Shown: one piece after another, positions 384 to 23,288 of the stretch
How the letters are laid out: each line of letters begins with the position of its first letter
Position numbering within the stretch: the stretch's first letter is position 1
IMG/VR virus record: IMGVR_UViG_3300036908_000284
Coordinates: 1-23,650 of that record
Length of the DNA stretch: 23,650 bases
Reading direction: 5' to 3' (one strand)
Source of the DNA: a virus
Notes under the pieces: model-generated
The model's input: only the letters and a program-made list of their open reading frames with translations
Told to the model about the DNA's origin: nothing
Databases searched by the model: none
Made by a program: the position numbers and the translations under genes

Positions 384-575
384 TTACTCTCCTTTTTCTT
401 GAAGTATTTCAATATCTGAGGCGTACAGATAATGCACGCGCTCCCACTCTTTCACCCCTAAATCGAAGGGTGTTCGATACAATCCCCCCGCGTAAAACGC
501 TTCGGGAATTACTAACATTCTATTTTTTTCGACGAGCTTAATAACCGGCTCGTCTTTGCTTTCGTTACTACGCAT
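384..575 (-). CDS. Small tail-module protein of unknown function
   Basis: A 63-residue soluble protein with no membrane segment, signal peptide or Cys pair. Its ATG lies inside the end of the distal tail gene (8-base overlap), and its stop is six bases from the next start, so translation is likely coupled. The middle holds a VIPEAFYAGGLYRTPFD stretch followed by an acidic C-terminus. It resembles short phage proteins of the kind that begin with a PYN or VxxPFxAGGxY motif and are found among structural genes, but I cannot assign a family. The overlap and codon pattern support a real gene. Confidence 0.6.
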   Translation of the reverse strand: MRSNESKDEPVIKLVEKNRMLVIPEAFYAGGLYRTPFDLGVKEWERVHYLYASDIEILQEKGE

Positions 576-2004
576 AAGTACTAACTTCTATGTTCTGACT
601 TTGTGCCGCGCCATATACGCCGTCGCCCGGGAAGTACACGTAATAGACGTTATCTATAATCTTACTCCAATTTCCGTTAAACGTAAAATTACCACTAACG
701 TCTGTGAAGAAGGTAGTTGGGCCAACGGTTGCGCCACCGCTTTTAGGATAATAATATAATTGAATTGGTTCGTTCGGCACAGGTACGGTTTCCCATTCGT
801 TATTAAGCGGATTCCACCACTGTAGCTGACCGGAGAATACCGTATTTGTGTTTACGTGAACGTTAGTCTGCGATACAGTGAACGTAAGTCTCGAATTCGC
901 TCGAGTAATTACCGTTACCGCGCTACTAATGCTTGGAGAATATTTATCGTCGCCGCTATATCCTGCATAATAAACGGCGTCTTCGGGTAAGCCCATCTCA
1001 AGAGGCTGGCTATACTGACCGTTTACGTCGGTCGTCGCAGTGAAATCATCAACGCGAAGACCATTGGTATAATGATAAACGATGATAGGTTTCGACATTG
1101 GCCCCATTGTGTTATTTAACTGAACGTTAAACGTAACGTTTTGTCCTAGAGACGGCGTGCCGTAATTAGCGCTTAATAAGATATTCGTCGGTAAGCCTAA
1201 CGACTGTTGTCCAACTAGCCACCTATCGCGCCACCGAATTTCAAACGTGCCGCTATGTGGCCCCATTAATGAAACTCTAGAATCGTTAGGTGGTATATGA
1301 GGCCACGCTGGCCCCTGTATTGTTGAAATAGAAAGATTGCCGTTATGTAAAACTGTATAAGGCGTTCCGTAGTCAACGTCCATAATAAAATCTAGGACGT
1401 CGTTTGCTGCAAGCGCACCATTCCATATGACTTGCTCATTCGTGACGGAATTACTAATTGTAACGTTTCCGGTGTATGCCTGCGCGGCCGTGAAGCGATA
1501 CCGTGGAGAACTTTGCACGTCGCCTAATGAAAAAATCGGTAGACTCTGTGGTGAGGTTGCTATGTTTTTCGACACGACCGTTTCGCTTAAGCTACGCGGT
1601 GGGCCGGTGCAGGCAAAATCGACTTCGAGTTCTATGATATGCTTCGCAGAATCCTCTTTCGTTATAGCGAACTTCTGACCTTTCGCTATGAAATACGATA
1701 GAGGAAACTCATCGAAGATAAGCTGCTGGTCACCATTTAGCGGATTAAAAAGCTGTGCAAGCGCATTATAACTTGATTGCATCGTCGCGCGAGTCATATC
1801 AGGAGAGATGATTCTTAGATAAATCGTGATAACCCAATCCTTTAGATAGGTCTTAGAATTCACTAAAGAAGTGGCGCTTGTCGGATACTGTGTCGACGTG
1901 AAGCCGTCTAACCACCAATACTTCGCTTGCATCGTCATAACTGCATTATACGGTGCTTGCGTGATGTCTTGACCGGCGAAAGTTAGTTTCTGCGAGCTTC
2001 CCAT
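568..2004 (-). CDS. Distal tail (Dit-like) protein with two C-terminal Ig-like domains
   Basis: A 478-residue protein directly after the tape measure, the usual place of the distal tail hub protein in siphoviruses. Residues 1-270 are mostly beta. Residues 54-135 look like the N-terminal Dit ring domain (a DWVITIYLRIIS strand and an FDEFPLSYFIAKG segment), and 150-262 look like the second beta-sandwich ending in FEIRWRDRWL. Two Ig-like repeats follow, at about 273-367 and 371-476. Each carries the hallmark of this fold: an N-terminal strand, a T-D-xNG turn (TTDVNGQY, FTDVSGNF), and a final aromatic-G-D-xxY turn (YSGDDKYSPSIS, FPGDGVYGAAQS). Such domains on tail tips usually bind cell-surface glycans weakly. 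The start is the ATG two bases after the tape measure stop. The Dit call rests on position and fold pattern, not on a strong motif. Confidence 0.7.
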   Translation of the reverse strand: MGSSQKLTFAGQDITQAPYNAVMTMQAKYWWLDGFTSTQYPTSATSLVNSKTYLKDWVITIYLRIISPDMTRATMQSSYNALAQLFNPLNGDQQLIFDEFPLSYFIAKGQKFAITKEDSAKHIIELEVDFACTGPPRSLSETVVSKNIATSPQSLPIFSLGDVQSSPRYRFTAAQAYTGNVTISNSVTNEQVIWNGALAANDVLDFIMDVDYGTPYTVLHNGNLSISTIQGPAWPHIPPNDSRVSLMGPHSGTFEIRWRDRWLVGQQSLGLPTNILLSANYGTPSLGQNVTFNVQLNNTMGPMSKPIIVYHYTNGLRVDDFTATTDVNGQYSQPLEMGLPEDAVYYAGYSGDDKYSPSISSAVTVITRANSRLTFTVSQTNVHVNTNTVFSGQLQWWNPLNNEWETVPVPNEPIQLYYYPKSGGATVGPTTFFTDVSGNFTFNGNWSKIIDNVYYVYFPGDGVYGAAQSQNIEVSTYA

Positions 2005-2005
2005 C

Positions 2006-5000
2006 TTAACCTCTCATCTGCCCTTTCCGACGTCGATAGCTATCGAATTCATTGCCGACAATTTTCGCATACTGTCGCGCTTCTTGCACAGATACCGTAT
2101 GAATTGGGCCATCGAAATGAATGTGCATATCGCCACCGCTCTGTTGTGCGCTCGTGCTCGGTGTAGCCGCGCTTAATCTCATAACGTTTGAAACGTTCGT
2201 GTTACCAACGCTCCCAGTGACTAGCGCTCCGCCTGCTAATCTCGGTAGACCCGATATAGCCGTCGGGTCGCCCATCTTCGAAGCGGGAATAACGTATTCA
2301 TCTTCGCCACCTTCACCGATAACCGCTAAAACGCCGCCCGAACGGGCTGCGATATACGCACCCTCGGCTAAGTTAAACGAGACTGTTTTATTAATAATCG
2401 GGATAGTAAACGTGATATTCGCGCCCGAAAGCGCGCTCGTTACGGCACCAGATATTGCGCTTCCCATCTGTCCACCTAAACTCGTGATGCCGTTTAGGAT
2501 ATTCTGCCCTATCTGCCCCCAATCTTGACCCGTAATGGCGCTTAAAACGCTACCACCGATACTTACAACGCCTGTTAGAATGTTTTGCCCTATCTGTCCC
2601 CAGTTCTGTGTCGTTACCGAATTCCATAACTCACCCGGAATCGGTGAAAGTAGACCCCATAACCATGTTCCAAACGTTCCAATAGCGCTAACGAAAGCGT
2701 TCCATAATTCGCCCGGAATCGGTGTAAGCAGTCCCCATAACCACGTGCCTAACGTTCCTAGAGCTGAAGTGAATCCCTGCCATAGAAGACCCGGAACCTG
2801 CACGAGCAAACCCCACACCCACGTGCCTAACGTTCCTAAAGCCCCCTGTATCGCACTCCATAGCTGATTCGCGATGCTTCCCCAATCGAGCGTTACTAAA
2901 TAATTAAGAATCGCCTGACCAAGTGCCATCGCTATCTTCGGGAATATCGATAATAACGCAACAGCGAGACCCCCCAACGCCCCCACGAGTTTCATTAAAA
3001 CCGTAGGCGCTGCTTGTGTCGCGCCGTCTACGAGTGATTTATTCATTCCGGTACTTACTGAAGTCGTAGCAGACTTGCCACCGCCACCGCCACCACCGCC
3101 GAATAAGCCGGTGATTGCTTTTACAAGACCATCTACGACGCTGTTCCAATCAATGCCGTTTAGCCAGTTCATTATCGTATCGGCTATGTTAGATAAGCTA
3201 GAAAGCCCGTTAAGAATCATTCCGCCGATATTACCAACGGATTCTTTAATCGACTGAATCATCTGCGCGGCCCACTCACCGAAATCGAAGTTCTTAAGTG
3301 AGTCTATCGCGCCTTGAAATCCCTGTTGAAGTAATTGACCTGCTTGTGAGAAGTTACCGCTCATCAGCGCGCCAGCTATGCCCTGCACTTGAGTCATAAC
3401 GCCGCCAGCAGCAGTAGCCGCACCGCCGAGCATACCTCTAAACGTTCCAGACGTAGCGGCCATTGTACCTAAACCAAGAGCTACAGCGCCGGTTATTGGT
3501 ATTAACGGCCCTGACGCTGCTACAGCAGCACCTAAGCCACCCGTTAGTCCCCCTGCCGCACCGGCACCACCAAGTAGTCCTTCACCTATTCCGCCTACGC
3601 TACCGAGAATTCCCGCGAGCGGCCCCGGAAGAGCACCCATTATACCGCTTAGAATCCCCCCACCTTCACCGGCGGCGGCTAATCCTTCGCCAACGTCACC
3701 TGCACCGGCGGCAAGCTCTCCCGTTTCTCCAGACGCGTCACCTATAACATCACCGAGATTCGACGTTTTTCCTGTAGCGTCTTGAAGAAGATTATCGAAG
3801 CCCTGCCCCTTATTCTGCATATTCTCTAGTTCGCTCGTCGTGCCTTTCGCGTTCTGAGTACACTTATCAAAACACGCGGGGTCTATCGGACACGGTCTTT
3901 TCGAGCTTGCACTGCCAACGGCGCTCTCTGCTTCGGCCTCTACGCCTTTAGCCGCACCACTACCACCTAAACCAACAAATTCTTTAAGTTGATTAGTTAT
4001 ATCGCTAAGACCTGCACCTTTTAGCTTCGTGATGCTCGTAATAATATCTCCAATATTAATATTAAACATTTTAAGCGCGAGTCCGGCAGCAGCGACACCA
4101 CCGGCTATAAGCCCTATAGCGAGCATACCCGCTTGTATTGGCATAGGTAGAGCCGCGAAGCCTTTCGCTAAAAGACCAATAAAACTAATTACCGGCGTTA
4201 ACGCGACGATGAAGTTCTTTAATATGGTAAGTATAGTAGTCCCAAGCGGGGCAAACGCTAATGTTAACTTATTTTCAAGCTCGGTTAACGCTTCGCCAAA
4301 CGTCTCGTTTGATTCGGCGGCTTTTTCAGTCGCACCACCGCTATTCTGAAGAGAGCTTATATACGCCTGATTAGTGATAGTCCCCGACTTAACCGCTGCG
4401 GTGAAGTTATCTTGGTTCTTGCCGAGAAGCTTAAGCTCATCTTGAGTATAAACACCCGTCTTTCCATCTTCGAGTAAGTGTTGCCAAAACGCCTGTTGAC
4501 TCTCTCCCGCTTTATCGGCGGCGGGGCCGATTCCCTGTAATAAAGAAGTTAACTGTCTAGCGGGTATTCCAGCTTGTGAGAACGCAGAAAGAGCCGCGAC
4601 TTGCTGAGGAATAGACATTCCCATCGCAGTCATCGACGCGGTAGCTTTATCGAACGCCGGCCCCCAATCTTGGATTCCCTTTCCGGTCTTCTGAAACGCT
4701 ACGGTAGACATATCAGATAACTGCGCGGTCGTCATAAGGGGCTCGTGCATCGCTTGGAGCCCACGATTCGCTTCTGTTAAGCCGGTCGTAAAAGAGTCGG
4801 TATCGCTAGTGGCGTCGGTTCCGGTCGCAATACTATAATCAATAATATCTTGCGTTGCTTTTCCTAACGCGTCACCCTGTAATCCAAGCGAGTTATTTAC
4901 TTTATCAATAACCGTCGCTACGGTGCTCGCGCTTGCAGGAACGTTCGCATAAACGTTACCCCACTGCGTCTCAAGTGATTGAAGTTGAGTACCCTGTAAG

Positions 5001-5482
5001 CCAGTTGCTTTTCCCATCTGAGAATAAGCATTATCAACGGTTTCACCGGACTTAATAGCGAACGCCGCAACGGCAACGGTGGCGATACCTATACCTGCTG
5101 CACCTAACGTACCCGCGCTTGTAAGCGCACTACCTAGGCCACCAGCTTCGGTAGCTGCGTCGCTCATTCCCGCTTTCGCGTCGGTAGCTGCCGCTTCTGT
5201 GTCTTTTAATCCGCCAGCAGCAGCGCCACCAGCTACCGCAGCGTCGCCTAAACCACCTTCTAGCTCTCCTGCACTCGCGGTCGCATCATCCATACCGGCA
5301 GCCATACCAGTTGCCGACGCTTCTGCTTCACCAGTACCCGCAGCGAAACCAGTTGCACTAGCGCCAGCCGCGTCCATTTCGCCGCCGAACGCTTCTGTCG
5401 ACTCGCTACCTTCGGCTAACGCGGCCTTTAAACCATCAGCGTTGCCGGTGATAATGACCATCAATTCGCCGAGACTTGCCAT
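2006..5482 (-). CDS. Tail tape measure protein
   Basis: At 1158 residues this is the longest gene in the window. It sets tail length and is expelled into the host at infection. Residues 30-130 are a degenerate Ala/Gly/Glu repeat region. Residues 140-400 match the minor-tail or tape-measure core (QSLETQWGNVYAN, IPQQVAALSAFSQAGI, SNETFGEALTELENKL). A strongly hydrophobic segment spans about 418-475. A Gly run lies at 794-802, and Trp-rich tandem repeats at 875-1014. The end holds the usual GGxxAxIGEGGEDEYVIPxSKM signature of tape measure C-termini. A Cys cluster at 531, 537 and 541 is unusual. By the standard rule of about 0.15 nm per residue the tail would be near 170 nm, which is inference. 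It starts 12 bases after the His/Lys-rich gene, with an AAAGG ribosome site. Confidence 0.95.
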   Translation of the reverse strand: MASLGELMVIITGNADGLKAALAEGSESTEAFGGEMDAAGASATGFAAGTGEAEASATGMAAGMDDATASAGELEGGLGDAAVAGGAAAGGLKDTEAAATDAKAGMSDAATEAGGLGSALTSAGTLGAAGIGIATVAVAAFAIKSGETVDNAYSQMGKATGLQGTQLQSLETQWGNVYANVPASASTVATVIDKVNNSLGLQGDALGKATQDIIDYSIATGTDATSDTDSFTTGLTEANRGLQAMHEPLMTTAQLSDMSTVAFQKTGKGIQDWGPAFDKATASMTAMGMSIPQQVAALSAFSQAGIPARQLTSLLQGIGPAADKAGESQQAFWQHLLEDGKTGVYTQDELKLLGKNQDNFTAAVKSGTITNQAYISSLQNSGGATEKAAESNETFGEALTELENKLTLAFAPLGTTILTILKNFIVALTPVISFIGLLAKGFAALPMPIQAGMLAIGLIAGGVAAAGLALKMFNINIGDIITSITKLKGAGLSDITNQLKEFVGLGGSGAAKGVEAEAESAVGSASSKRPCPIDPACFDKCTQNAKGTTSELENMQNKGQGFDNLLQDATGKTSNLGDVIGDASGETGELAAGAGDVGEGLAAAGEGGGILSGIMGALPGPLAGILGSVGGIGEGLLGGAGAAGGLTGGLGAAVAASGPLIPITGAVALGLGTMAATSGTFRGMLGGAATAAGGVMTQVQGIAGALMSGNFSQAGQLLQQGFQGAIDSLKNFDFGEWAAQMIQSIKESVGNIGGMILNGLSSLSNIADTIMNWLNGIDWNSVVDGLVKAITGLFGGGGGGGGKSATTSVSTGMNKSLVDGATQAAPTVLMKLVGALGGLAVALLSIFPKIAMALGQAILNYLVTLDWGSIANQLWSAIQGALGTLGTWVWGLLVQVPGLLWQGFTSALGTLGTWLWGLLTPIPGELWNAFVSAIGTFGTWLWGLLSPIPGELWNSVTTQNWGQIGQNILTGVVSIGGSVLSAITGQDWGQIGQNILNGITSLGGQMGSAISGAVTSALSGANITFTIPIINKTVSFNLAEGAYIAARSGGVLAVIGEGGEDEYVIPASKMGDPTAISGLPRLAGGALVTGSVGNTNVSNVMRLSAATPSTSAQQSGGDMHIHFDGPIHTVSVQEARQYAKIVGNEFDSYRRRKGQMRG
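2441..2860 (-). repeat. Trp-rich tandem repeats inside the tape measure gene
   Basis: The tape measure protein carries three consecutive 26-residue repeats (residues 875-952), each with the pattern LW-x5-AxGTxGTWxWGLL-x2-xPG. A pair of 27-residue units with a core of WGQIGQNILxG follows (residues 961-1014). The DNA copies are visible as recurring blocks reading cataaccacgtgcctaacg or close variants on the + strand. Tape measure proteins commonly change length by gain or loss of such units. Confidence 0.85.
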
Positions 5483-5494
5483 GTTTACCTTTCT

Positions 5495-5815
5495 TTAAAA
5501 CTTAGCTATGTGCCGTGCTTGCGCCGTTGTTTTCGCGACGAAGCTCGTCGGTGCGCGTTTCTTCTGTTTCTGTACCTTTATTTTAACGTGAAGCGTCGGT
5601 TTCGTCGATGTGTCTCCCGATTTTTTTGATAGATGGCTCGCTTTTGTCTTTGTTTGTGGGTGTGCTTCTACGGTCGTCTTATGGTGTGTTTTCGTTGTGG
5701 TTTTGTGGTGTGCCGCTTCCGTAGTCTTATGATGTGCTTTAGCGGTTTTACTCGCGGTTGCGTGTGCTTTAGCGTGTGCTTTGGCGTGTTTTACCGCTTT
5801 AGCTTTCTTTACCAC
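5495..5815 (-). CDS. His/Lys/Thr-rich low-complexity basic protein
   Basis: A 106-residue protein between the tail chaperone frame and the tape measure. It starts at GTG, with AGGTG upstream, shortly after the chaperone stop. Its first 60 residues are almost only Lys, His, Ala and Thr, with AKAH repeats and then three 8-residue units ending in HHKTT (residues 25-48). The C-terminal part (70-106) is basic and less repetitive. There is no membrane segment or Cys. The composition resembles linker-histone-like nucleic-acid binding tails or a metal-binding His cluster. Position suggests a tail assembly or DNA-ejection partner of the tape measure protein. I do not recognise a family, and the function is unknown. 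The frame is open for its full length and its neighbours abut it, so it is probably real. Confidence 0.65.
   Translation of the reverse strand: MVKKAKAVKHAKAHAKAHATASKTAKAHHKTTEAAHHKTTTKTHHKTTVEAHPQTKTKASHLSKKSGDTSTKPTLHVKIKVQKQKKRAPTSFVAKTTAQARHIAKF
5672..5743 (-). repeat. Three 24-base repeats encoding AHHKTT-type units
   Basis: Residues 25-48 of the His/Lys-rich protein form three in-phase 8-residue units, each ending in HHKTT. The underlying DNA shows gtggtt and gtgtgc blocks spaced 24 bases apart. Confidence 0.8.
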
Positions 5816-12511: not shown

Positions 12512-13756
12512 TTATGCAGCGCCCCAACCTTTAACTGACTTCATAACAGCGCCAGCGAGGTCGTATCGCATTGCGAAATCGTGCATACTAACCGCTCGAA
12601 TAACCGTCTGGTCTTCCGAGAAGGTTGCTACGACGTTCATTCCATCGTAATAAGCCGCCGTATTGCTAACGTCTATTCGAACCTGCATCGAGTCGCCAAT
12701 GAACGCGTCATCGAAGTTCACAAAGTAGATTTCTGAACAGTTAGAAACCGGACTACCTGTAGTTGAATCAGTTAGGTTAGTCGGAATCTGAGTCGTGACA
12801 GCGTAGGGGAATCTAAGCAACTTGCCTGTCGCCATTTCGGGCTGGAAAGCGTAGTTACCGAGCGAATCCCTTATGGTCATAAGGTAATACTCAATCTGAG
12901 GTGCGAATATCCAACCGCAGTTTGTCATTGGAATGTTGGCTTGGCGCAATTTGAGGATGCACGTCGCGAGGTCATTCGTGACACTCTGAAGGTTAGAATA
13001 CGTAGGCGTACCAGTCTGTGCTGCGGGTTGCGTGGCTGCGAATACGTTCGTCGGGCTAATCCAGTTAAGGAGACCCTTCGGGGTATTCACGGTGCCGTCA
13101 CCGCGCATAAAGGCTTGGTCTTCGCGCTGCGCCATCGCTTTAACGAGGTCTTCTCGTACGATTTGGTCGGCAGCGATTGTGTTTACCTGCAAAAGCTCGT
13201 TTGAGATTGGGACAAGTGCGGCTAGTTTCTTAGCTGCAAGTGTTATTTGACCAAAGCTCTGTTCCGTGGCTTGAATGTTAATATTCTCACCAACATAGGT
13301 TGCATTGGCACCACCCGTCACCTTCGGAATACTCATCTGAAGGTTGTTGAGGGGTAGCACTCGAGCGCCCATAGAACGCATAACAGAGGCGGGTCTTAGG
13401 AATTCAATAATCTCAGTCGATAGGACTTCTGGAACCAAAAACCCACCACTAACATCTTGATTCGCACTAAGAGCCTTTGTAACTTCGGCTTTATCGCCGA
13501 AGACTCTAGTTGCGAAGTTAAGTGGGCTTTCACGGTTCTTCTCAGCCATAACGAGAGCTTTAATGAATCCGCTAACCGTATTTCCCATCTGAGCTGAAGC
13601 AGCGGTTTTCGTAGAGGTTTGCTCGCCTCCAAGTTGTGAACGAACGTTAAGATTGTCGCGGATTGCCGCGCCTTTCTTAACATCTTCCATAACGGGAGCA
13701 AGCATCTCCTTAATCAACGCGCTAATATCATTGCGCGTCATATGTGCTTCTTCCAT
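12512..13756 (-). CDS. Major capsid protein, HK97 fold
   Basis: A 414-residue protein with the HK97 capsid layout. The N-terminal arm (about 1-95) includes a helical, removable delta-like segment (ISALIKEMLAPVMEDVKK). Then comes the diagnostic GGFLVPEVLSTEIIEFLR (about 105-122), RSMGARVLPL, the E-loop region (IPKVTGGANATYVGENINI), the spine helix with NELLQVNTIAADQIVREDLVKAMAQREDQAFMRGDGT, and the A-domain with a P-x-G-LLNW turn. GGAG lies eight bases before the ATG; a second ATG five codons on is also possible. The fused protease upstream would cleave the arm. It forms the icosahedral shell. Confidence 0.95.
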   Translation of the reverse strand: MEEAHMTRNDISALIKEMLAPVMEDVKKGAAIRDNLNVRSQLGGEQTSTKTAASAQMGNTVSGFIKALVMAEKNRESPLNFATRVFGDKAEVTKALSANQDVSGGFLVPEVLSTEIIEFLRPASVMRSMGARVLPLNNLQMSIPKVTGGANATYVGENINIQATEQSFGQITLAAKKLAALVPISNELLQVNTIAADQIVREDLVKAMAQREDQAFMRGDGTVNTPKGLLNWISPTNVFAATQPAAQTGTPTYSNLQSVTNDLATCILKLRQANIPMTNCGWIFAPQIEYYLMTIRDSLGNYAFQPEMATGKLLRFPYAVTTQIPTNLTDSTTGSPVSNCSEIYFVNFDDAFIGDSMQVRIDVSNTAAYYDGMNVVATFSEDQTVIRAVSMHDFAMRYDLAGAVMKSVKGWGAA

Positions 13757-13809: not shown

Positions 13810-16056
13810 CTACAAATCTAATTGCTTTTTAAGCTCGGTTACGGTGTCTTTTAACATCTCACCAAGCTCATTCACGTCGACGATGTAGACTTCTTCGACG
13901 TCTTCGAGTTTCTTTGCGGTCGGTTGTCCGGGTGTAATCGGTTCTTGTCCGGGTGTTACCGGCTCTTGGTCTTCGGGTTCGGTGTTCTGTTCGTCGTCAC
14001 CGCCCTCTTCCTTATCGAGAACCGATTTAACTGCATCAAAACCAGCTTTATAGCACTTTATAGCCTCATCGTGAGCTGTTGCCGCTTTCGCGTGCGCTTT
14101 TGTGACTGACTCGTGTGCTTTCATACCGGCTTCGTGATGCCCGAATCCTTCGCTAAATTTACCGAGAGCCTCATTAAGTGCTTCTCCGGTACTCTTAGAG
14201 ATTCGTCTACCTGCCTTCGTCGTCGTAATATCCATCATTTTTTCGAATAGTTTAGTCGCTTCTTTCTCGTCGTCGGACTCCCACGGTGCGCTATCGCCGA
14301 AATCGTGGTAGTGCTTCTCGAGATGTGATTTAATAGCCGCAATATCGCCAGCAGGAACTTTAAGCGGACTACGTGCTCCTTGTATTGCTCCACCGCAACC
14401 ACGCACGCCGTTTAATACGCACGAGTGCTGGCCGCTTGATTGGTGATGCGGAAGCTTGTAACTACTCTTCGCGTCGGGGTCACCATCAGGGTCGACCCAC
14501 GTACACATAATCTTTAAATCATCAGGTTCGGCTGCTGCGATTTGACCGGGGCCGTCCCACGCGGCGTCTTCACTGGCTAGTGGTGTTTTCATATAAGGAA
14601 TTGCACCCTTAGTCGTCGTACCCTCTACTTCCTTCTTCTCGTGCTTCTCTTCGTCTTTAGGCGGCTCTTCATCTTCGTTTGCGTTATCGCACGAGTCGGG
14701 AGTTTCATCTTGATTGCACTGCCCGTCTTTGAAGTTCTTGCACTCGCCGCACGCGTCTTCGTTAGCTGCTAGAGCTTTCTCGTCGACTTCTTTCGTAGCC
14801 TCTTCGACGTCTTTAGTTTCGTCTTCGACGTCTTTAGATTCTACGGCATCTTCTTTAGATTCAACTTCCTTTTGCTTAGCAGAGCCGGATTGACCGTTAG
14901 TACTTGTATCCCACGGTATGTTTTCTTTAAACTCGCTCATATGTTGATTCATATGGTCGAGAATAATCTGATTATCATTTTGCGTAAAACCTAGATGGTC
15001 AACGTCGCCTTCTTGTGTAGCGGCTTGTTTCATATGTCCCTCGTCGTCCTGTTCTGGTGTGACGAGTAGCTGTGCAGCGACGGCTTTACCGATTCGCTTA
15101 ACCGCTTTTAGATTAACTTCGTGAGGCGCGTCGCCTGTGTGATGTGCATATTGATAACCATCTTTAGTCGACTCGTCATCGCCGGTAAATCCTGCGTGCA
15201 TCGCCTTGAAGTGCTCCGCCTTAGTAGCCTTAGAGCGTTCTAAATTAGCGTTCCACGTGGCGTCTTTAGCAGAGAGTGGCGTGCCGTTTGGGTGAGCGTC
15301 TTTATAACTTATCGCTCCTTTTCGCATTTTGACATCTCCTTTATTATTAGTGTCGCCGCCTTCAGGCACAAGTGCGCCACCTGCGGCCTCATCTGAAACT
15401 CCTAACGCTTTTTCGTTAGGACATGAACAATTTTTAAGGGCATATTCGGCCCATTTCTTGACCTCTGCTCTCATTGATTTAAGTTCATTATTCGTAACGT
15501 CCTTCGCGCTCGCGCCTATTTGCAGCGCTCCGGGATTCGACGGCACAGGTACGCAAGAGTATTCAATTAAATCTTGCTTCATAAAGTGCGTACCGCCTAT
15601 CATGCTATTCGCTCCGTCGTCTTGTTTTTTCATTGCTTCCCAATCTATTGGGTAAAAACCGGCAGAAACGGCGTTTAAGAATCCATTTTTATAAAAATTA
15701 AAACACGTTGAACCACGTATTCCTTTATAGGTGTCGTTACCTTTCTCGTCTAAATAAAGTTCATCTGGTGTAAATTCAACAACGGATTTAAGCGCGTCTA
15801 CATCTACCCAAGTTTTTATAGCTTTACCAACGGGCAACTTATCGTACTGATGCGCCCACATAACGACGGGGTTTTTAACATAGTTCCCGAGCGTCCAGCC
15901 TTTTGCGTCTAAACTATCGCCATCGCGGTCTATCTCTTCGTTACTAATCGTAAAAGCGAGACGCATCGCACTAGGTGTCGAAACGTCTTTAACCTCCGAT
16001 AGTTTTAGCGTCTTAAAACGCGGCGTGCCTTGAATCACGTCTTTTGTAAGTGTCAT
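13810..16056 (-). CDS. Prohead protease fused to a long duplicated-module scaffold region
   Basis: A 748-residue protein, over three times the usual prohead protease. Residues 1-185 are a U35-type protease domain: D43-R-D-G-D, MWAHQYDKLPVG with catalytic His69, NAVSAGF with catalytic Ser131, and LIEYSCVPVPSNP. Two copies of a phage accessory module follow, at about 246-391 (KGAISYKDAHPNGTPLSAKD, ending IPWDTS) and 483-594 (KGAIPYMKTPLASEDAAW, with YKLPHH and HLEKHYHDFG, ending APWES). An acidic linker between them (395-480) holds a Cys cluster (C436, C439, C447, C456). A helical, His/Ala-rich segment (600-680), a Pro-Gly-Gln linker and a final leucine-rich helix end the protein. The fused part probably serves as scaffold for capsid assembly and is cleaved away. 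The ATG overlaps the HNH stop. Confidence 0.9.
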   Translation of the reverse strand: MTLTKDVIQGTPRFKTLKLSEVKDVSTPSAMRLAFTISNEEIDRDGDSLDAKGWTLGNYVKNPVVMWAHQYDKLPVGKAIKTWVDVDALKSVVEFTPDELYLDEKGNDTYKGIRGSTCFNFYKNGFLNAVSAGFYPIDWEAMKKQDDGANSMIGGTHFMKQDLIEYSCVPVPSNPGALQIGASAKDVTNNELKSMRAEVKKWAEYALKNCSCPNEKALGVSDEAAGGALVPEGGDTNNKGDVKMRKGAISYKDAHPNGTPLSAKDATWNANLERSKATKAEHFKAMHAGFTGDDESTKDGYQYAHHTGDAPHEVNLKAVKRIGKAVAAQLLVTPEQDDEGHMKQAATQEGDVDHLGFTQNDNQIILDHMNQHMSEFKENIPWDTSTNGQSGSAKQKEVESKEDAVESKDVEDETKDVEEATKEVDEKALAANEDACGECKNFKDGQCNQDETPDSCDNANEDEEPPKDEEKHEKKEVEGTTTKGAIPYMKTPLASEDAAWDGPGQIAAAEPDDLKIMCTWVDPDGDPDAKSSYKLPHHQSSGQHSCVLNGVRGCGGAIQGARSPLKVPAGDIAAIKSHLEKHYHDFGDSAPWESDDEKEATKLFEKMMDITTTKAGRRISKSTGEALNEALGKFSEGFGHHEAGMKAHESVTKAHAKAATAHDEAIKCYKAGFDAVKSVLDKEEGGDDEQNTEPEDQEPVTPGQEPITPGQPTAKKLEDVEEVYIVDVNELGEMLKDTVTELKKQLDL

Positions 16057-16487
16057 GTAGCCAGCTCCTGTAAAAATTCTAATTCCGTCTTCGCATGTTG
16101 TCTACGGTTACAAGACGGACACGTTAACGCAATATTATCAATATTATTCGACCCACCACGAGAAATCGGGATTTTGTGGTCGACGTGATATGGCATAGCC
16201 ACGTACAAAAATTCACCACAGTAATGACAATCGCCGCGCTGCCAAGCGAAGAGTTCCATTTCTTCGTCGAATGTAAACGAACCGCCATTGCCTGCTTTAT
16301 TCACTCTGCGTTTATGATTAGCGCGCTTTAGTATCGCATGGCAAACTTCGGGATGAGTATTATAATACGCGCGGTTTCGCTCTCGTATCTTATCAGCGTT
16401 TTCTTGACGATACCTTCTTTGTCGCGCGTGTATTCTCTCTTTATTAAGTTGCCAGTATTCTACATAATACGCGCGTCTATCGCTCAT
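16053..16487 (-). CDS. HNH endonuclease between coiled-coil gene and protease
   Basis: A 144-residue protein with an N-terminal basic helical part (residues 1-60, NKERIHARQRRYRQENADK onward) typical of phage HNH nucleases. The nuclease core follows: CHYCGEFL (C-x-x-C zinc pair), YHVDHKIPISRGGSNNIDN (the H-x-x-DH-I-P-x-SRGG motif of the ββα-metal site), then LTCPSCNRRQHAKTE (second C-x-x-C and final His). All metal and catalytic residues are present. The gene sits in the head block with a GAGGTAGG ribosome site, and its stop overlaps the protease ATG. HNH proteins near portal or terminase can help cos cleavage; others are homing nucleases. Which applies here is not settled by the sequence. Confidence 0.9.
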   Translation of the reverse strand: MSDRRAYYVEYWQLNKERIHARQRRYRQENADKIRERNRAYYNTHPEVCHAILKRANHKRRVNKAGNGGSFTFDEEMELFAWQRGDCHYCGEFLYVAMPYHVDHKIPISRGGSNNIDNIALTCPSCNRRQHAKTELEFLQELAT

Positions 16488-16576: not shown

Positions 16577-17188
16577 CTAGGGTAATCCACCAAATACGTG
16601 AAATGAATATGAAATAAATACAAGAATAAACAGGAACGCAAGTGACGAAAGCGCGCCTATAATCTTCCAGTGAAGTGCGCTTGTTTCTACGGCGTTTTGT
16701 TTTATAAACTCCGCACGCAGTTCGCCTATGTCTTCCGTGGTTGCTATTCTCGTTGCTGCATCGCTGGCGAGTCTTGCTTTTTCGGTCGCGCTTTCTCGCT
16801 TTATGCCATTTCGCTCAATCGAGTTCATCCGGTTTGCTATGTTTAAATCCATAGCGTCGACTTTTGTTACAATGCCGTGAATATCCGTACCCAACTCGTC
16901 GATTTTTTCGTCGAGCTTATTAAGAATGCCGTTTTGTCGAATACTGTTTGCCTCGTACGCTTTAAGACGCTCGTCGTGCTGACCGAGGCTTATTTGACAC
17001 TGTTTCACGCAGTTTTCCATGGCGCCTAATTCTTCTTTATGCACAAGCGAAACGTGCTTTTGTTCGTCGCGTATGCTTTCGATAAGTGAGGTACTTTTTT
17101 CTAACTTGGAACTAAACTCATTAATTTTCTTAAGTTCCGCGTCAAGTTCGGTTTTAACGGCCTTAACGTCCCTCTTTAAGTCTTCCAT
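16577..17188 (-). CDS. Coiled-coil protein with a C-terminal membrane anchor
   Basis: A 203-residue protein. Residues 1-165 are almost wholly helical with heptad spacing (DVKAVKTELDAELKKINEFS, GILNKLDEKIDELGTDIHGIV), so a long coiled coil is expected. A single hydrophobic segment at about 173-196 (WKIIGALSSLAFLFILVFI) is followed by only seven residues, giving a tail-anchored form with the coiled coil in the cytoplasm or on the inner side. A GGTGG ribosome site precedes the ATG. The surrounding genes are head genes (portal and protease), an odd place for a membrane protein. Lysis or exclusion functions are conceivable, but nothing identifies one. Confidence 0.65.
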   Translation of the reverse strand: MEDLKRDVKAVKTELDAELKKINEFSSKLEKSTSLIESIRDEQKHVSLVHKEELGAMENCVKQCQISLGQHDERLKAYEANSIRQNGILNKLDEKIDELGTDIHGIVTKVDAMDLNIANRMNSIERNGIKRESATEKARLASDAATRIATTEDIGELRAEFIKQNAVETSALHWKIIGALSSLAFLFILVFISYSFHVFGGLP

Positions 17189-17201: not shown

Positions 17202-17429
17202 TTAGGTATTATCGTTAGGCAGCAACTTCACGTCGATTAACTTGTTCTGCTCTTCTTTCTCGAGCGTTGCAAGCTTTATAAAACACGGATTACAGAGCCA
17301 CTTTAGATGTTCGGGAGTTCCAAATAATGTAAATCGTTTTGATGAACCGTCGTCGTTAAACCACGACGTTTTACAGTTAGCGCAGTGGTCGGGCGGCATT
17401 AAGGTGATAATTGGCAATTTTGTAGGCAT
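17202..17429 (-). CDS. Small Cys-pair (zinc-finger-like) protein after portal
   Basis: A 75-residue protein whose ATG overlaps the portal stop as TAATG. Two Cys pairs, C16-x-x-C19 and C46-x-x-C49, are 27 residues apart and fit one zinc site with an intervening beta hairpin (SKRFTLFGTPEHLKWLC). The C-terminus is acidic and helical. Such small proteins are frequent in viral genomes, but the family is not recognised. Tight coupling to portal suggests co-expression with the head genes. Confidence 0.6.
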   Translation of the reverse strand: MPTKLPIITLMPPDHCANCKTSWFNDDGSSKRFTLFGTPEHLKWLCNPCFIKLATLEKEEQNKLIDVKLLPNDNT

Positions 17430-18850
17430 TATTGTTTCCTCGGTCGTCGTGTGTATCGTTCTAAATCGCGGAGTCGCTTCGTCTTCTTACCGCGAATCTT
17501 TCCGAACGGCGTTTGAGTCTCACCATATGCCTCTTTACCGGCTTGCGGTGGTGGCGCGACGGCCGGAACCTGCACAATGCCTTTCTTTAGACTAGAGAGA
17601 ACCTGCACGTTAATTGGTACAACGAAACATTCACCATCTCCATCGGGTAACGGGTCGTATTCCATTAATGCTCGCCATTCGTCAATCATAAGCGCACTCG
17701 GCATAAATCGAGCCGCTTTTAGAATTATGTCTTTATCCTTTTGCACCGGATTAACGTAGAGCATTACTAATTCGCCAGTGTCGTCAAACCGGGGGATTAA
17801 TTGTTTATTAAGAACTTCTTGTAAAAAGTCAAGTCGGGGTCGAAGCGTGTAACGAGAAAAGAAAAGGTCGGCTGCATCTATAGTTGCTCGATTCGACGAC
17901 TGAAGAATACCAAGTATCTCAGGCGGTACGCCAATAACTGAAGCTACGACGTCTCTTTGATGCTGTCGTAGATTTACAATATCCGCGCCTTCGAACTTTT
18001 GACTTAGTTCTTTAATCTCGACTTTTCGACTTAAGAACCGAACTTTACCAGCGTTCCAAAAGCCCTGATGCTGTAAGTTCCAATCGTCTTCGAGCTGTCT
18101 CACCCGTTCTGCGTTAAGCCCTTCCCCATAAATGAGCAGTGGTGGCCGAGCTTGATTATTAAAGTAGCTTAATACATAACGAGAAGCAGCGTCGTCAGTG
18201 TCGAGGTCGTGAGAAAGTGATTGTGCTAAACCTACGCCTCGAGAATACGGGTCGGCCGGGTCTAGATGAGCGAACCATATCATCTCATCCATATCGATTC
18301 TAAATTCGCCCTTCGGCCCCGAAATAGTAAAAAACGCCTCATCAGCGGTCGGTGTTCTAACTACTTTACCGGGCGAGATAGGATACGCTTGTACTACGCT
18401 CTGTATTGGCACCATCCACCAAAACGCTTCGCCAACGAGTTCTAAATAGACCTGCGTAAGCCAAATAAGCTGTTGAAAGCTAAAATTAGAATTAGGATTA
18501 TTAATAAAATCTTGAAGCGGGATAACGTTCTGTGGCTCTTCTTCTATGACGTCCATGCCGCCGGTTTTGCTCGGCTCGCGTCGAACAAAACGAATGTCCC
18601 AATCGTTCTGAGCAATAGAATTAGCTACCTTTGTCACCGAGGTTCGTAACCACGGTAGTTCGGCAAATGCTTTTAGATACGCGGGAATATCTCGCTTTAT
18701 AGAAGCAGTAACTTGGTCGCCAACGATTCGCGCGAGAACGTCTTGGTCGCTACTCGGCGTTTGATTTAGTTGTTGAATACCTGCTCGTTGTCTAAAAGTT
18801 ACACTATCGGCAAGTCGTCTAAATAGCGTTCGCTGAGCGGATTGTGCCAC
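17429..18850 (-). CDS. Portal protein
   Basis: A 473-residue HK97-type portal. It starts at GTG; no good ribosome site is seen, and a hairpin lies just upstream. Recognisable segments are IKRDIPAYLKAFAELPWLRT, SVTKVANSIAQNDWDIRF (helix and first clip strand), LTQVYLELVGEAFWWMVP, MDEMIWFAHLDPADPYSRGVG, the wing and stem region (RYVLSYFNNQARPPLLIYG), and VIGVPPEILGILQSSNRATI, which is typical of the portal tunnel helix region. The C-terminal 100 residues are basic and proline-rich. It forms the dodecameric ring at one capsid vertex and is the docking site for the terminase. Length is in the normal range. Confidence 0.95.
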   Translation of the reverse strand: MAQSAQRTLFRRLADSVTFRQRAGIQQLNQTPSSDQDVLARIVGDQVTASIKRDIPAYLKAFAELPWLRTSVTKVANSIAQNDWDIRFVRREPSKTGGMDVIEEEPQNVIPLQDFINNPNSNFSFQQLIWLTQVYLELVGEAFWWMVPIQSVVQAYPISPGKVVRTPTADEAFFTISGPKGEFRIDMDEMIWFAHLDPADPYSRGVGLAQSLSHDLDTDDAASRYVLSYFNNQARPPLLIYGEGLNAERVRQLEDDWNLQHQGFWNAGKVRFLSRKVEIKELSQKFEGADIVNLRQHQRDVVASVIGVPPEILGILQSSNRATIDAADLFFSRYTLRPRLDFLQEVLNKQLIPRFDDTGELVMLYVNPVQKDKDIILKAARFMPSALMIDEWRALMEYDPLPDGDGECFVVPINVQVLSSLKKGIVQVPAVAPPPQAGKEAYGETQTPFGKIRGKKTKRLRDLERYTRRPRKQ

Positions 18851-19611: not shown

Positions 19612-19752
19612 TTATTCACCCGTTAAAACTCGATTAATATAGCCATTAAAAAACTTAGGACAACAATTAAACTCATCGGGTTCTCGATTAATGTCGCACA
19701 CGGCGTCTTTAGACGTTTGTTTAAGGTGTCCGCAGTTCTTACACTTCATCAT
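19612..19752 (-). CDS. 46-residue Cys-rich peptide
   Basis: The start ATG overlaps the previous TGA as ATGA. The peptide has C4-x-x-C7 (KCKNCGH), then C19, then C30-C31 before KFFNGYI. This spacing resembles a small zinc ribbon in which the first pair and the later Cys bind one metal ion. It sits in a run of similar peptides. It may be a DNA- or protein-binding accessory factor; no role can be assigned. Confidence 0.5.
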   Translation of the reverse strand: MMKCKNCGHLKQTSKDAVCDINREPDEFNCCPKFFNGYINRVLTGE

Positions 19753-20006: not shown

Positions 20007-20128
20007 GTTTTTACCCCATTTTTCTTTTTATAACACTTTTTATGCCATCGTTGCGTTTTTGATGCGAAATGAGACTCACAAATGTCTATCTTCTGGTTAC
20101 ATTCTGCACATATATACGGATTCGTCAT
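20003..20128 (-). CDS. 41-residue zinc-finger-like peptide
   Basis: ATGA overlap with the upstream stop and TTGA overlap with the next start support this tiny gene. It carries C7-x-x-C10, Cys17 and an H29-x-x-C32 end (RWHKKC) with a basic C-terminus. The C-x-x-C plus H-x-x-C layout is a plausible treble-clef or LIM-like metal site. A nucleic-acid binding role is likely but inferred. Confidence 0.55.
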   Translation of the reverse strand: MTNPYICAECNQKIDICESHFASKTQRWHKKCYKKKNGVKT

Positions 20129-20271
20129 TTTTTTACCTTTGTATAATACGGACAATCGAGGCAATCAAATAGTACCGTAGAGCCGGGGGGACACGAGCAG
20201 AAGACTAAACCCCCTAAGCTCGTGTTATCATAGTGCTCGCAGGTTTCGCACATTATAAGATTATTACTCAT
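20125..20271 (-). CDS. 48-residue zinc-ribbon-like peptide
   Basis: The peptide shows C8-x-x-C11, a middle CSC (25 and 27) and C37-x-x-C40, so it has six Cys in 48 residues. It ends in YYTKVKK. This resembles a rubredoxin-like or zinc-ribbon fold. Its stop overlaps the next ATG as ATGA. Ten bases separate its ATG from the upstream stop. Confidence 0.5.
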   Translation of the reverse strand: MSNNLIMCETCEHYDNTSLGGLVFCSCPPGSTVLFDCLDCPYYTKVKK

Positions 20272-20281
20272 CTCTAATTAC

Positions 20282-21169: not shown

Positions 21170-21345
21170 TCTTTTTGTTTGTACAGTTCATACGCGCCTT
21201 TTTTGGCGCTATAGTCTACTTTCTTCGCGGGATTTACGCGTAGTAGGGTGCATAATTTAAACGTACAGGTGTCCCAACAGTCTCCGATTTTAGACTGACG
21301 CAAATACCCACACTTTTCTAAGTCTAAAGTACCTTCCACGTTCAT
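21166..21345 (-). CDS. 59-residue Cys-rich protein
   Basis: I start at the ATG at 21345, which overlaps the upstream TGA as ATGA; an upstream TTG adds five residues without a ribosome site. Four Cys are at 12, 23, 27 and 32 (LEKCGY, DCWDTCTFKLC). Their spacing fits a compact metal-binding loop or a disulfide cluster. The last 25 residues are basic. Its stop overlaps the next ATG. Confidence 0.5.
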   Translation of the reverse strand: MNVEGTLDLEKCGYLRQSKIGDCWDTCTFKLCTLLRVNPAKKVDYSAKKGAYELYKQKE

Positions 21346-21836
21346 TGCTTTAGAACCCAAAAGTTAAATGTCGCGGTCGACGGTGCGTATTGACTATTAC
21401 CTGCGAACTTCACGATAAGCGTGTGCTTACCGAGAGCGAGACACGCCGTTGATTTCGCTGGCAACGTAAACGCAATCGTTTCAGTTCCGCCCTTTACTTG
21501 TGTAACTTTACCCTGCGTCCACCAGTATATTGAGCTATCCACGGTTACGGTAACCGGAACGGAGAGTACCTTCGCTTGTCCCGTTGGAACGACCTCGAAT
21601 CCCCATCCTACAGATGCTCTATTGTATACAACGGTCGGATTCGCGTTAAACATAGGATTACCGTAGATTGATGTCGCAATTCTCGGCTTTGGCTTAACGT
21701 TACAGCCGTTAATCACTTGCTTCTGGATAATAGTCTGCGTGACAGAGGTATTAACCTGTGTCTGAGCCGATACCGCACCCGTTAGAAATATCGCAACGAG
21801 CGCAACACTTAGAGCGGCTATAATCACTTTTTTCAT
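21342..21836 (-). CDS. Secreted Ig-like domain protein
   Basis: A 164-residue protein with a clear signal peptide: a basic N-terminus, a hydrophobic core (VIIAALSVALVAIFLTGAV) and a likely cleavage after AVSA near residue 24. The mature part has two Cys (about 45 and 132, likely a disulfide), an all-beta body (VLSVPVTVTVDSSIYWW) and a final Ig-like end LGKHTLIVKFAGNSQYAPST. This G-x-H-T-x-x-V-x-F-x-G-x-x-x-Y-x-P-S-T end recurs in bacterial and archaeal surface proteins. The same end is seen twice in the distal tail protein here (YSGDDKYSPSIS). It may alter the host surface or exclude other viruses; this is inference. Confidence 0.6.
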   Translation of the reverse strand: MKKVIIAALSVALVAIFLTGAVSAQTQVNTSVTQTIIQKQVINGCNVKPKPRIATSIYGNPMFNANPTVVYNRASVGWGFEVVPTGQAKVLSVPVTVTVDSSIYWWTQGKVTQVKGGTETIAFTLPAKSTACLALGKHTLIVKFAGNSQYAPSTATFNFWVLKQ

Positions 21837-22164: not shown

Positions 22165-22290
22165 TACATCACTCCGTGACTACTCTACTAGCTTACGCAA
22201 GCAGCTTCTATCGTGTTTCCACGAACGGTCGCTAGCCCACGACCGAGTATGTTCTTAGCCGCGTTCTCATCTCTATCTAAGACAAGTCCG
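22165..22290 (-). ncRNA. Candidate TnpB guide RNA (omega RNA) at the tnpB 3' end
   Basis: Four hairpins follow each other on the coding strand around the tnpB stop: CGGTCG/CGACCG with an 8-base loop (22226-22245), TCGTG-GAAA-CACGA with a GNRA tetraloop (22211-22224), GCTT/AAGC (22191-22202), and TCAC/GTGA (22169-22179). In IS200/IS605 elements the omega RNA spans the tnpB 3' end and the right end, with the guide just beyond. The exact 3' boundary and guide start are unknown. Confidence 0.5.
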
Positions 22291-23288
22291 CAGTCACACG
22301 AATGAACGCGGTCTTTCAGCTCTTTATGAACTATCTGACCACATCTCGAACATTCTTGAGTTGTATTCTTTGCGTCAACCATCACCACTACTGAACCAGC
22401 GTTCTCAGCTTTGTTCTTCGTGAATGTGATGAACTGACTCCACGCCACATCGCCTATTGACTTTGCTAGGTGGCTGTTTTGCATCATCCCTTTGATATTC
22501 AAGTCCTCGAAGGCGATGATGCCGTATGTATCGACAAGCTTTCTGCTTAACTGGTGAGCGAAGTTACTCCGCTTGTTCGCTATGCGTTCGTGTATCTTCG
22601 GAATTACCTTCTTTGCCTTATTTCGCTGCGCTTTCGCTAACTGTTTTTCTTCAGCTCTAAAGAAACGTGGGTTGTCTATGTGTTCACCAGTTGACAGTGT
22701 GGCAAACGAATTTATGCCAACATCAACACCAACCGCAGCATTGTTAGGTGCTATTTGTATCTCTCTCCAACCGTCAACAGTGAAACACGCAAACCACTTC
22801 CCTGTTGAACTGCGCTTTATGTTAAGCCGCTTTATCTCGCCCTCTATCGGTCTGTGTAGTTTGATTTTGACATCACCTATCTTTGACAACTGTAGCGTTG
22901 AACCTGTGAGAGCAAAACCTGACTGTGGGTAAGTGAATGAATCACACCAGCCCCTACCTTTGAAACGCGGGTATCCTGCTTTCTCTCCAGCTTTTACCCG
23001 CCGGAAAAATGCTTTGAAGGCTAAGTCTACTCGATATTGAACTTCTTGGAGCACCTGAGAATACACAGGTATCTGTCGTTCTTGTTTCCAGAGCAACAGT
23101 AGTTTTTGCGTGTCGTATCGAGAATACAAAACGTGTCGAGAATATGGGAAGTCTTTTGTTGCTTCATACGCGTTGCGCCGTGTTGCCAGTGTTTCGTTAT
23201 AGACCCATCTGCACAGCTCAAGCGTTTGCTTCATCACCGTTTCTTGGTGTGCGGTCGGATACAGCCTATAACGAAAGACTTTATTCAT
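22188..23288 (-). CDS. tnpB: TnpB RNA-guided nuclease (IS605 OrfB)
   Basis: A 366-residue protein of normal length, beginning MNKVFRYRLYPT as is usual for the family. All catalytic parts are in place: RuvC-I at GVDVGI (D189), RuvC-II at AFEDL (E261), a four-Cys zinc finger (C313, C316, C331, C333) and RuvC-III at LDRDENAA (D340). The conserved GYPRFKGR and FTITFTK-type helices are present. TnpB cuts DNA at a target motif with an omega RNA guide, which helps the element persist after its own excision. The gene looks intact with no frameshift. It follows tnpA by five bases and is probably translated from the same mRNA. Confidence 0.95.
   Translation of the reverse strand: MNKVFRYRLYPTAHQETVMKQTLELCRWVYNETLATRRNAYEATKDFPYSRHVLYSRYDTQKLLLLWKQERQIPVYSQVLQEVQYRVDLAFKAFFRRVKAGEKAGYPRFKGRGWCDSFTYPQSGFALTGSTLQLSKIGDVKIKLHRPIEGEIKRLNIKRSSTGKWFACFTVDGWREIQIAPNNAAVGVDVGINSFATLSTGEHIDNPRFFRAEEKQLAKAQRNKAKKVIPKIHERIANKRSNFAHQLSRKLVDTYGIIAFEDLNIKGMMQNSHLAKSIGDVAWSQFITFTKNKAENAGSVVVMVDAKNTTQECSRCGQIVHKELKDRVHSCDCGLVLDRDENAAKNILGRGLATVRGNTIEAACVS

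Follow-up and report, generated by a model that had tools for sequence, protein, structure and literature searches.

Why would a prohead protease gene encode, beyond the protease itself, two accessory modules separated by a Cys-rich linker, and what would these modules do? The question is raised by a gene in an IMG/VR virus record of 23,650 bases, the whole of which was analysed and is called the window here. The head and tail genes of the window all lie on the minus strand, and include head-tail connectors and a weakly matched major tail protein. The gene, its domains and the neighbouring genes that matter to the argument are arranged as follows.

13810..16056, minus strand: prohead protease precursor gene with two accessory modules (748 aa; intact in the related contigs L002-L005, L104, L102 and L103)
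15517..16056, minus strand: protease domain, residues 1-180 (phrog_617, T4 gp21 fold match, conserved His69 and Ser131)
15328..15516, minus strand: helix 189-209, then a linker in which a C-x-C-P (residues 210-213) is conserved
14899..15327, minus strand: module A, residues 244-386 (W268, K298, Y301, H305, H306, H368 and H372 kept; GARGG loop lost)
14611..14898, minus strand: acidic linker, residues 387-482 (predicted disordered, pLDDT about 30)
14689..14751, minus strand: four-Cys motif, C436-x2-C439-x7-C447-x8-C456 (0, 1, 2 or 5 copies in relatives)
14269..14610, minus strand: module B, residues 483-596 (ancestral-type; YKLPHH, GAR loop, HxxxH)
13813..14268, minus strand: C-terminal region, residues 597-748 (long 63-residue helix 621-683 and final helix 728-745 in the predicted structure)
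17429..18850, minus strand: portal protein (Pfam Phage_portal, E 5e-43; phrog_2662)
12512..13756, minus strand: major capsid protein, the presumed substrate (Pfam Phage_capsid at 104-401; 103 residues precede the capsid domain)
2006-5482, minus strand: tape measure

Once inside the procapsid, prohead proteases cleave the scaffold or delta domain and finally themselves. Duda et al. reportedly dealt in 2013 with the HK97 protease, its domains and its encapsidation. How such proteases enter procapsids and stay inactive until assembly is complete has been established for few phages and, to our knowledge, for no archaeal virus. An earlier note on this DNA had recognised a prohead protease domain in the gene, and the assignment was borne out. 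Residues 9-195 matched phrog_617 in a PHROG search (E 4e-15). The full-length 748-aa model, whose overall confidence is low (pTM 0.33), matched T4 gp21 in a structure search (5jbl; prob 1.00, TMt 0.60, E 3e-4). Among solved proteins only T4 gp21 matched well, followed by weak matches to the herpesvirus assemblin proteases. In a 31-sequence alignment S131 was invariant and H69 was conserved in at least 90%, and the gene is placed between the portal and major capsid protein genes. Matches to Pfam Peptidase_S78 (17.9 bits, cut-off 21) and TIGR01543 (16.9, cut-off 59) both fell below the curated cut-offs, which indicated that the protease is divergent. Because a curated cut-off is a limit of sensitivity and not a defining trait, membership among the prohead proteases rests on fold, residues and position. 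The protein has in common with T4 gp21 and the HK97-family proteases (Peptidase_S78, TIGR01543, phrog_617) the gp21 fold, the His and Ser residues and a capsid gene as neighbour, but at 748 aa it is set apart from them by its pair of accessory modules, its Cys motif and its helical tail. SSU5-type protease-capsid fusions (phrog_617) were considered as proteins that might hold a module between protease and capsid; it was absent from the sequence read.

We judge it slightly better than an even bet that the gene product is a prohead protease precursor in a tailed virus of HK97 type, with a C-terminal extension that places the protease in the procapsid and with modules that serve as docking domains. 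The N-terminal serine protease would cut the capsid precursor inside the procapsid, and the long extension, made up of the two modules, the Cys spacer and the helical tail, would draw the protease into the shell as it assembles and retain it there. Each module would be a folded domain, present singly in a large set of viruses of bacteria and archaea, that docks on capsid, portal or scaffold segments, and the extension would probably be removed during maturation. We infer this encapsidation role and the removal, as we do the metal binding considered below. The HK97 capsid protein has a 103-residue scaffolding domain (PMC10275583), and since the N-terminal extension of the window's capsid protein is equal to it in length, a separate scaffold gene is perhaps unneeded.

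This last point bears on a reading that we consider unlikely, that of a protease fused to its scaffold as in lambda gpC/Nu3, in which the modules and helical tail would be the scaffold proper and give the shell its shape, perhaps being made alone as well from an internal start. The predicted C-terminus is helical and coiled-coil-like (helices 621-683 and 728-745), and no separate scaffold gene was recognised between the protease and capsid genes, as such a fusion would have it; however, the HK97-like extension of the capsid protein would make a second scaffold redundant.

The module itself has the signature W...W-V-D...K..YKLPHH...GARGG...P..D...HLxxH. In the window's module B the conserved positions are W500, D522, K530, Y533, K534, P536, H537, H538, G560, R562, P568, D571, H578 and H582, and this copy fits the whole signature except for the GG after GAR, which is SP here. 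Module A fits it in the W, K, Y and four His residues but not in the Arg or the GARGG loop. Module B was predicted at a pLDDT of 92.3. A Foldseek search of the PDB with module B returned no match (best E 5.9), and the fold is therefore apparently undescribed by experiment; the same search of BFVD returned six viral proteins at probability 1.00, of which two had E values under 1e-3 and one was the ChaoS9 protein described below. Sequence searches of Pfam, PHROGs and the PDB yielded no family for the module, module A had no match in the phage collection, and a literature search on the motif KLPHH found nothing. A by-product of the analysis is a widespread unnamed domain on prohead proteases, with a confident predicted fold and no PDB counterpart.

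How widespread the module is was assessed by scanning viral contigs with a module B profile, which gave 338 relatives, with 80 loci kept; a scan with an A profile was added. The two-module protease had been thought rare, and it is: two copies were found in its own clade only, and every other module-bearing ORF examined had a single copy. Outside the clade these comprised about 117 viral ORFs (about 70 at 85% clustering), in none of which a second copy was found, the extra domain rows being weak, fragmentary hits at E 0.3 or above. Eleven provirus-like ORFs from Halobacteriota genomes also held one copy each. Most of those read by eye encode a protease to which one module and an additional C-terminal region are appended. 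Many prohead proteases thus carry the accessory module as a regular component, and it is no curiosity of this gene. A protease with one module is common; what is new here is the presence of two copies together with the putative Cys knots.

Among named viruses, one copy each was found in Thermus phage Riverbug, Streptomyces phage Mischief19 and the archaeal virus MFTV1. The Riverbug head maturation protease (XKB90076.1) has, like the window gene, a protease followed by a module with the four His and GARGG, and its module is 35% identical to module B; it differs in having one copy, no Cys linker and a protease of another family (phrog_328). In Methanocaldococcus fervens tailed virus 1, a methanogen virus, QNO11481.1 (365 aa, annotated as hypothetical) begins with a part that resembles a protease or scaffold (weak phrog_73) and continues with one module and an additional C-terminal region, but has no second module and no Cys motif. 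The putative prohead protease of Halobacterium virus ChaoS9 (ChaoS9_030), called a protease on the basis of VIRFAM (PMC6471424), matched module B structurally (Foldseek E 0.015, prob 1.00) but has no recognisable YKLPHH. In Moorella phage MTATph1 the module is a separate protein of 125 aa, and in four loci (L058, L061, L064 and L071) it lies at the start of its own ORF, which indicates that the module does not need the protease in cis.

These stand-alone modules speak against the docking role, as do the four His, which could mean an enzyme. All four (HH plus HxxxH) are present in 72 of the 80 modules, none in 5 and an intermediate number in 3, and they suggest, from sequence, a metal site. In the tree the modules without His occupy one or two branches, so that their distribution supports a joint function only weakly. 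The idea that the module acts independently, as a metal-dependent enzyme or a metal-binding effector packaged with the DNA via the protease precursor or alone and without any part in placing the protease, has in its favour the joint presence and joint loss of the His residues, the free-standing MTATph1 copy and the modules that begin separate ORFs. It seems doubtful to us nonetheless: at the head locus the module is usually fused to a protease, and these proteases belong to different families, no known enzyme fold was matched, and His-less rows confined to one or two branches make the joint loss a matter of few events.

The linker between the modules adds a second candidate metal site. The four-Cys motif pointed out in the earlier note was confirmed, and eight clade copies keep the four Cys together with a single Pro. 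The strict Cys pattern is confined to this clade among all the loci retrieved. Searches of Pfam and the PDB gave no family for it, and a 100-aa part of the Cys array gave weak matches only in 295 archaeal genomes. Proteins that are otherwise alignable have 0, 1, 2 or 5 Cys motifs between A and B, which indicated that the spacer is variable in length. Each motif is probably a small knot that binds metal, set in a spacer that is otherwise disordered. Short minus-strand ORFs with four or more Cys also occur elsewhere in the window, at 19612-19752 (CKNCGHLKQTSKDAVCDINREPDEFNCC) and 20128-20277 (CETCEHYDNTSLGGLVFCSCPPG...DC); the resemblance of these free-standing mini-proteins to the linker motif, of which they were considered as a source, was not significant (HMM E 10).

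We hold to be decidedly unlikely a further reading, in which prohead proteases of many bacterial and archaeal viruses are regulated or positioned by the module, acting as a domain of undescribed fold that binds metal through HH plus HxxxH, and in which the duplication in this clade and the variable number of four-Cys metal knots tie procapsid entry or activation of the protease to metal or redox state. Natural variants with one copy, two copies, B replaced, or 0-5 Cys motifs make the role of the module testable.

The two modules of the window gene are homologous, as the earlier note had proposed. Their self-alignment gave a local score of 103, compared with a maximum of 52 in 1000 shuffles, and comparison of profiles built from five A copies and 54 B-type modules gave an hhalign probability of 98.5% (E 1.7e-15). 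An HMM trained on the window's copy B and on modules that occur singly in other viruses, with no copy A included, found module A in the window, L104 and L102 at domain E values of 1e-6 to 2e-10. In the full-length predicted model both modules have the same helix-helix-strand-strand-helix-helix order, and they are about 28% identical. The earlier note had further held that copy A lost the SYKLPHH part that copy B keeps, and this proved to be wrong: the aligned residues are GYQYAHH in the window and (Y/F)-x-x-PHH in L102, L103 and L104. Module A thus retains the aligned Y-x-x-(P/A)-H-H as well as both later His. The part lost in A is the GARGG loop, in place of which it has a variable acidic insertion. 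Copy B would be the ancestral form retained, whereas copy A keeps the His, Trp, Lys and Tyr signature without the GARGG loop. Because of the loss of this loop, module A probably has a different partner or contact from B.

Loss of the loop and the identity of about 28% might instead mean that copy A is decaying and is no more than a spacer, and its long stem branch in the tree points the same way. This is very improbable. Comparison of the window with L004 by computation showed purifying selection on both copies, with dN/dS of 0.108 for A and 0.123 for B; all four His are kept in A; and A is retained in L103, where B is replaced.

The same gene occurs in contigs of several metagenomes. The arrangement had been held to be rare, and it is not unique to this genome, being the norm in its small clade of L002-L006, L104/L096 and L102. 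The IMG/VR relatives L104/L096, L102, L103 and L004/L005 all have the protease and module A as in the window gene. L004/L005 share 90% protein identity with it over the alignment and have two Cys motifs; L104/L096 have five, L104 at 63% protein identity; L102, at about 55%, has none. In L103 (47-55% protein identity, also without Cys motifs) module A is kept and the place of B is taken by a different small domain. This domain (L103:8001-10058; SLQAGINKENLQDLSAYHRRMHMF...SPLEWKKS) is helical-looking, and its only Pfam match was below threshold. With independent contigs from several metagenomes and a homology far above shuffles (E 1.7e-15), an assembly artefact or chance resemblance has next to no probability.

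In the tree the A copies form one group (100/100) and the B copies another (97/86), and since these are separate, supported groups, the second copy is older than the clade split. Forcing A and B into one clade gave a worse tree (p-AU 0.059). The second module may have arisen by tandem duplication in this gene or been gained separately, in either case before the clade members split.

The virus probably infects methane-producing archaea. The nearest relatives of its TnpB (IS605 OrfB; 22188-23288, minus strand) are in Methanothrix and other Methanotrichaceae, at 53-59% protein identity, which points to a methanogen host, though not conclusively; some Oscillochloris genomes hold TnpB relatives at 50-52%. 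In 50 genomes from the order of the Methanothrix hits, neither integrated module copies nor near-identical DNA was found, and nearly all DNA matches were to the TnpB gene.

Several further features of the locus were observed. Within the protease gene, dS between the window and L004 was 1.07 in the protease part and 0.13-0.51 in the remainder; because silent-site divergence is far higher in the protease part, a recombination junction near residue 181 is likely. Directly upstream, and overlapping the protease start codon, lies an HNH endonuclease gene (16053-16487, minus strand). It is absent in L099 and L100, in which about 490 bases are missing between flanks alignable at 81-88% identity, and it therefore looks like a mobile insertion. 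The head cluster also encodes, between the portal and protease genes, a coiled-coil-like protein with a hydrophobic C-terminal segment (16577-17188, minus strand). A Lys-Ala-His-rich, histone-H1-like protein (5495-5815, minus strand) adjoins the tape measure gene. Weak matches to Big_3_5 (bacterial Ig-like) were found in a Dit-like tail protein (568-2004, minus strand) and in a small protein whose start resembles a signal peptide (21342-21836, minus strand).
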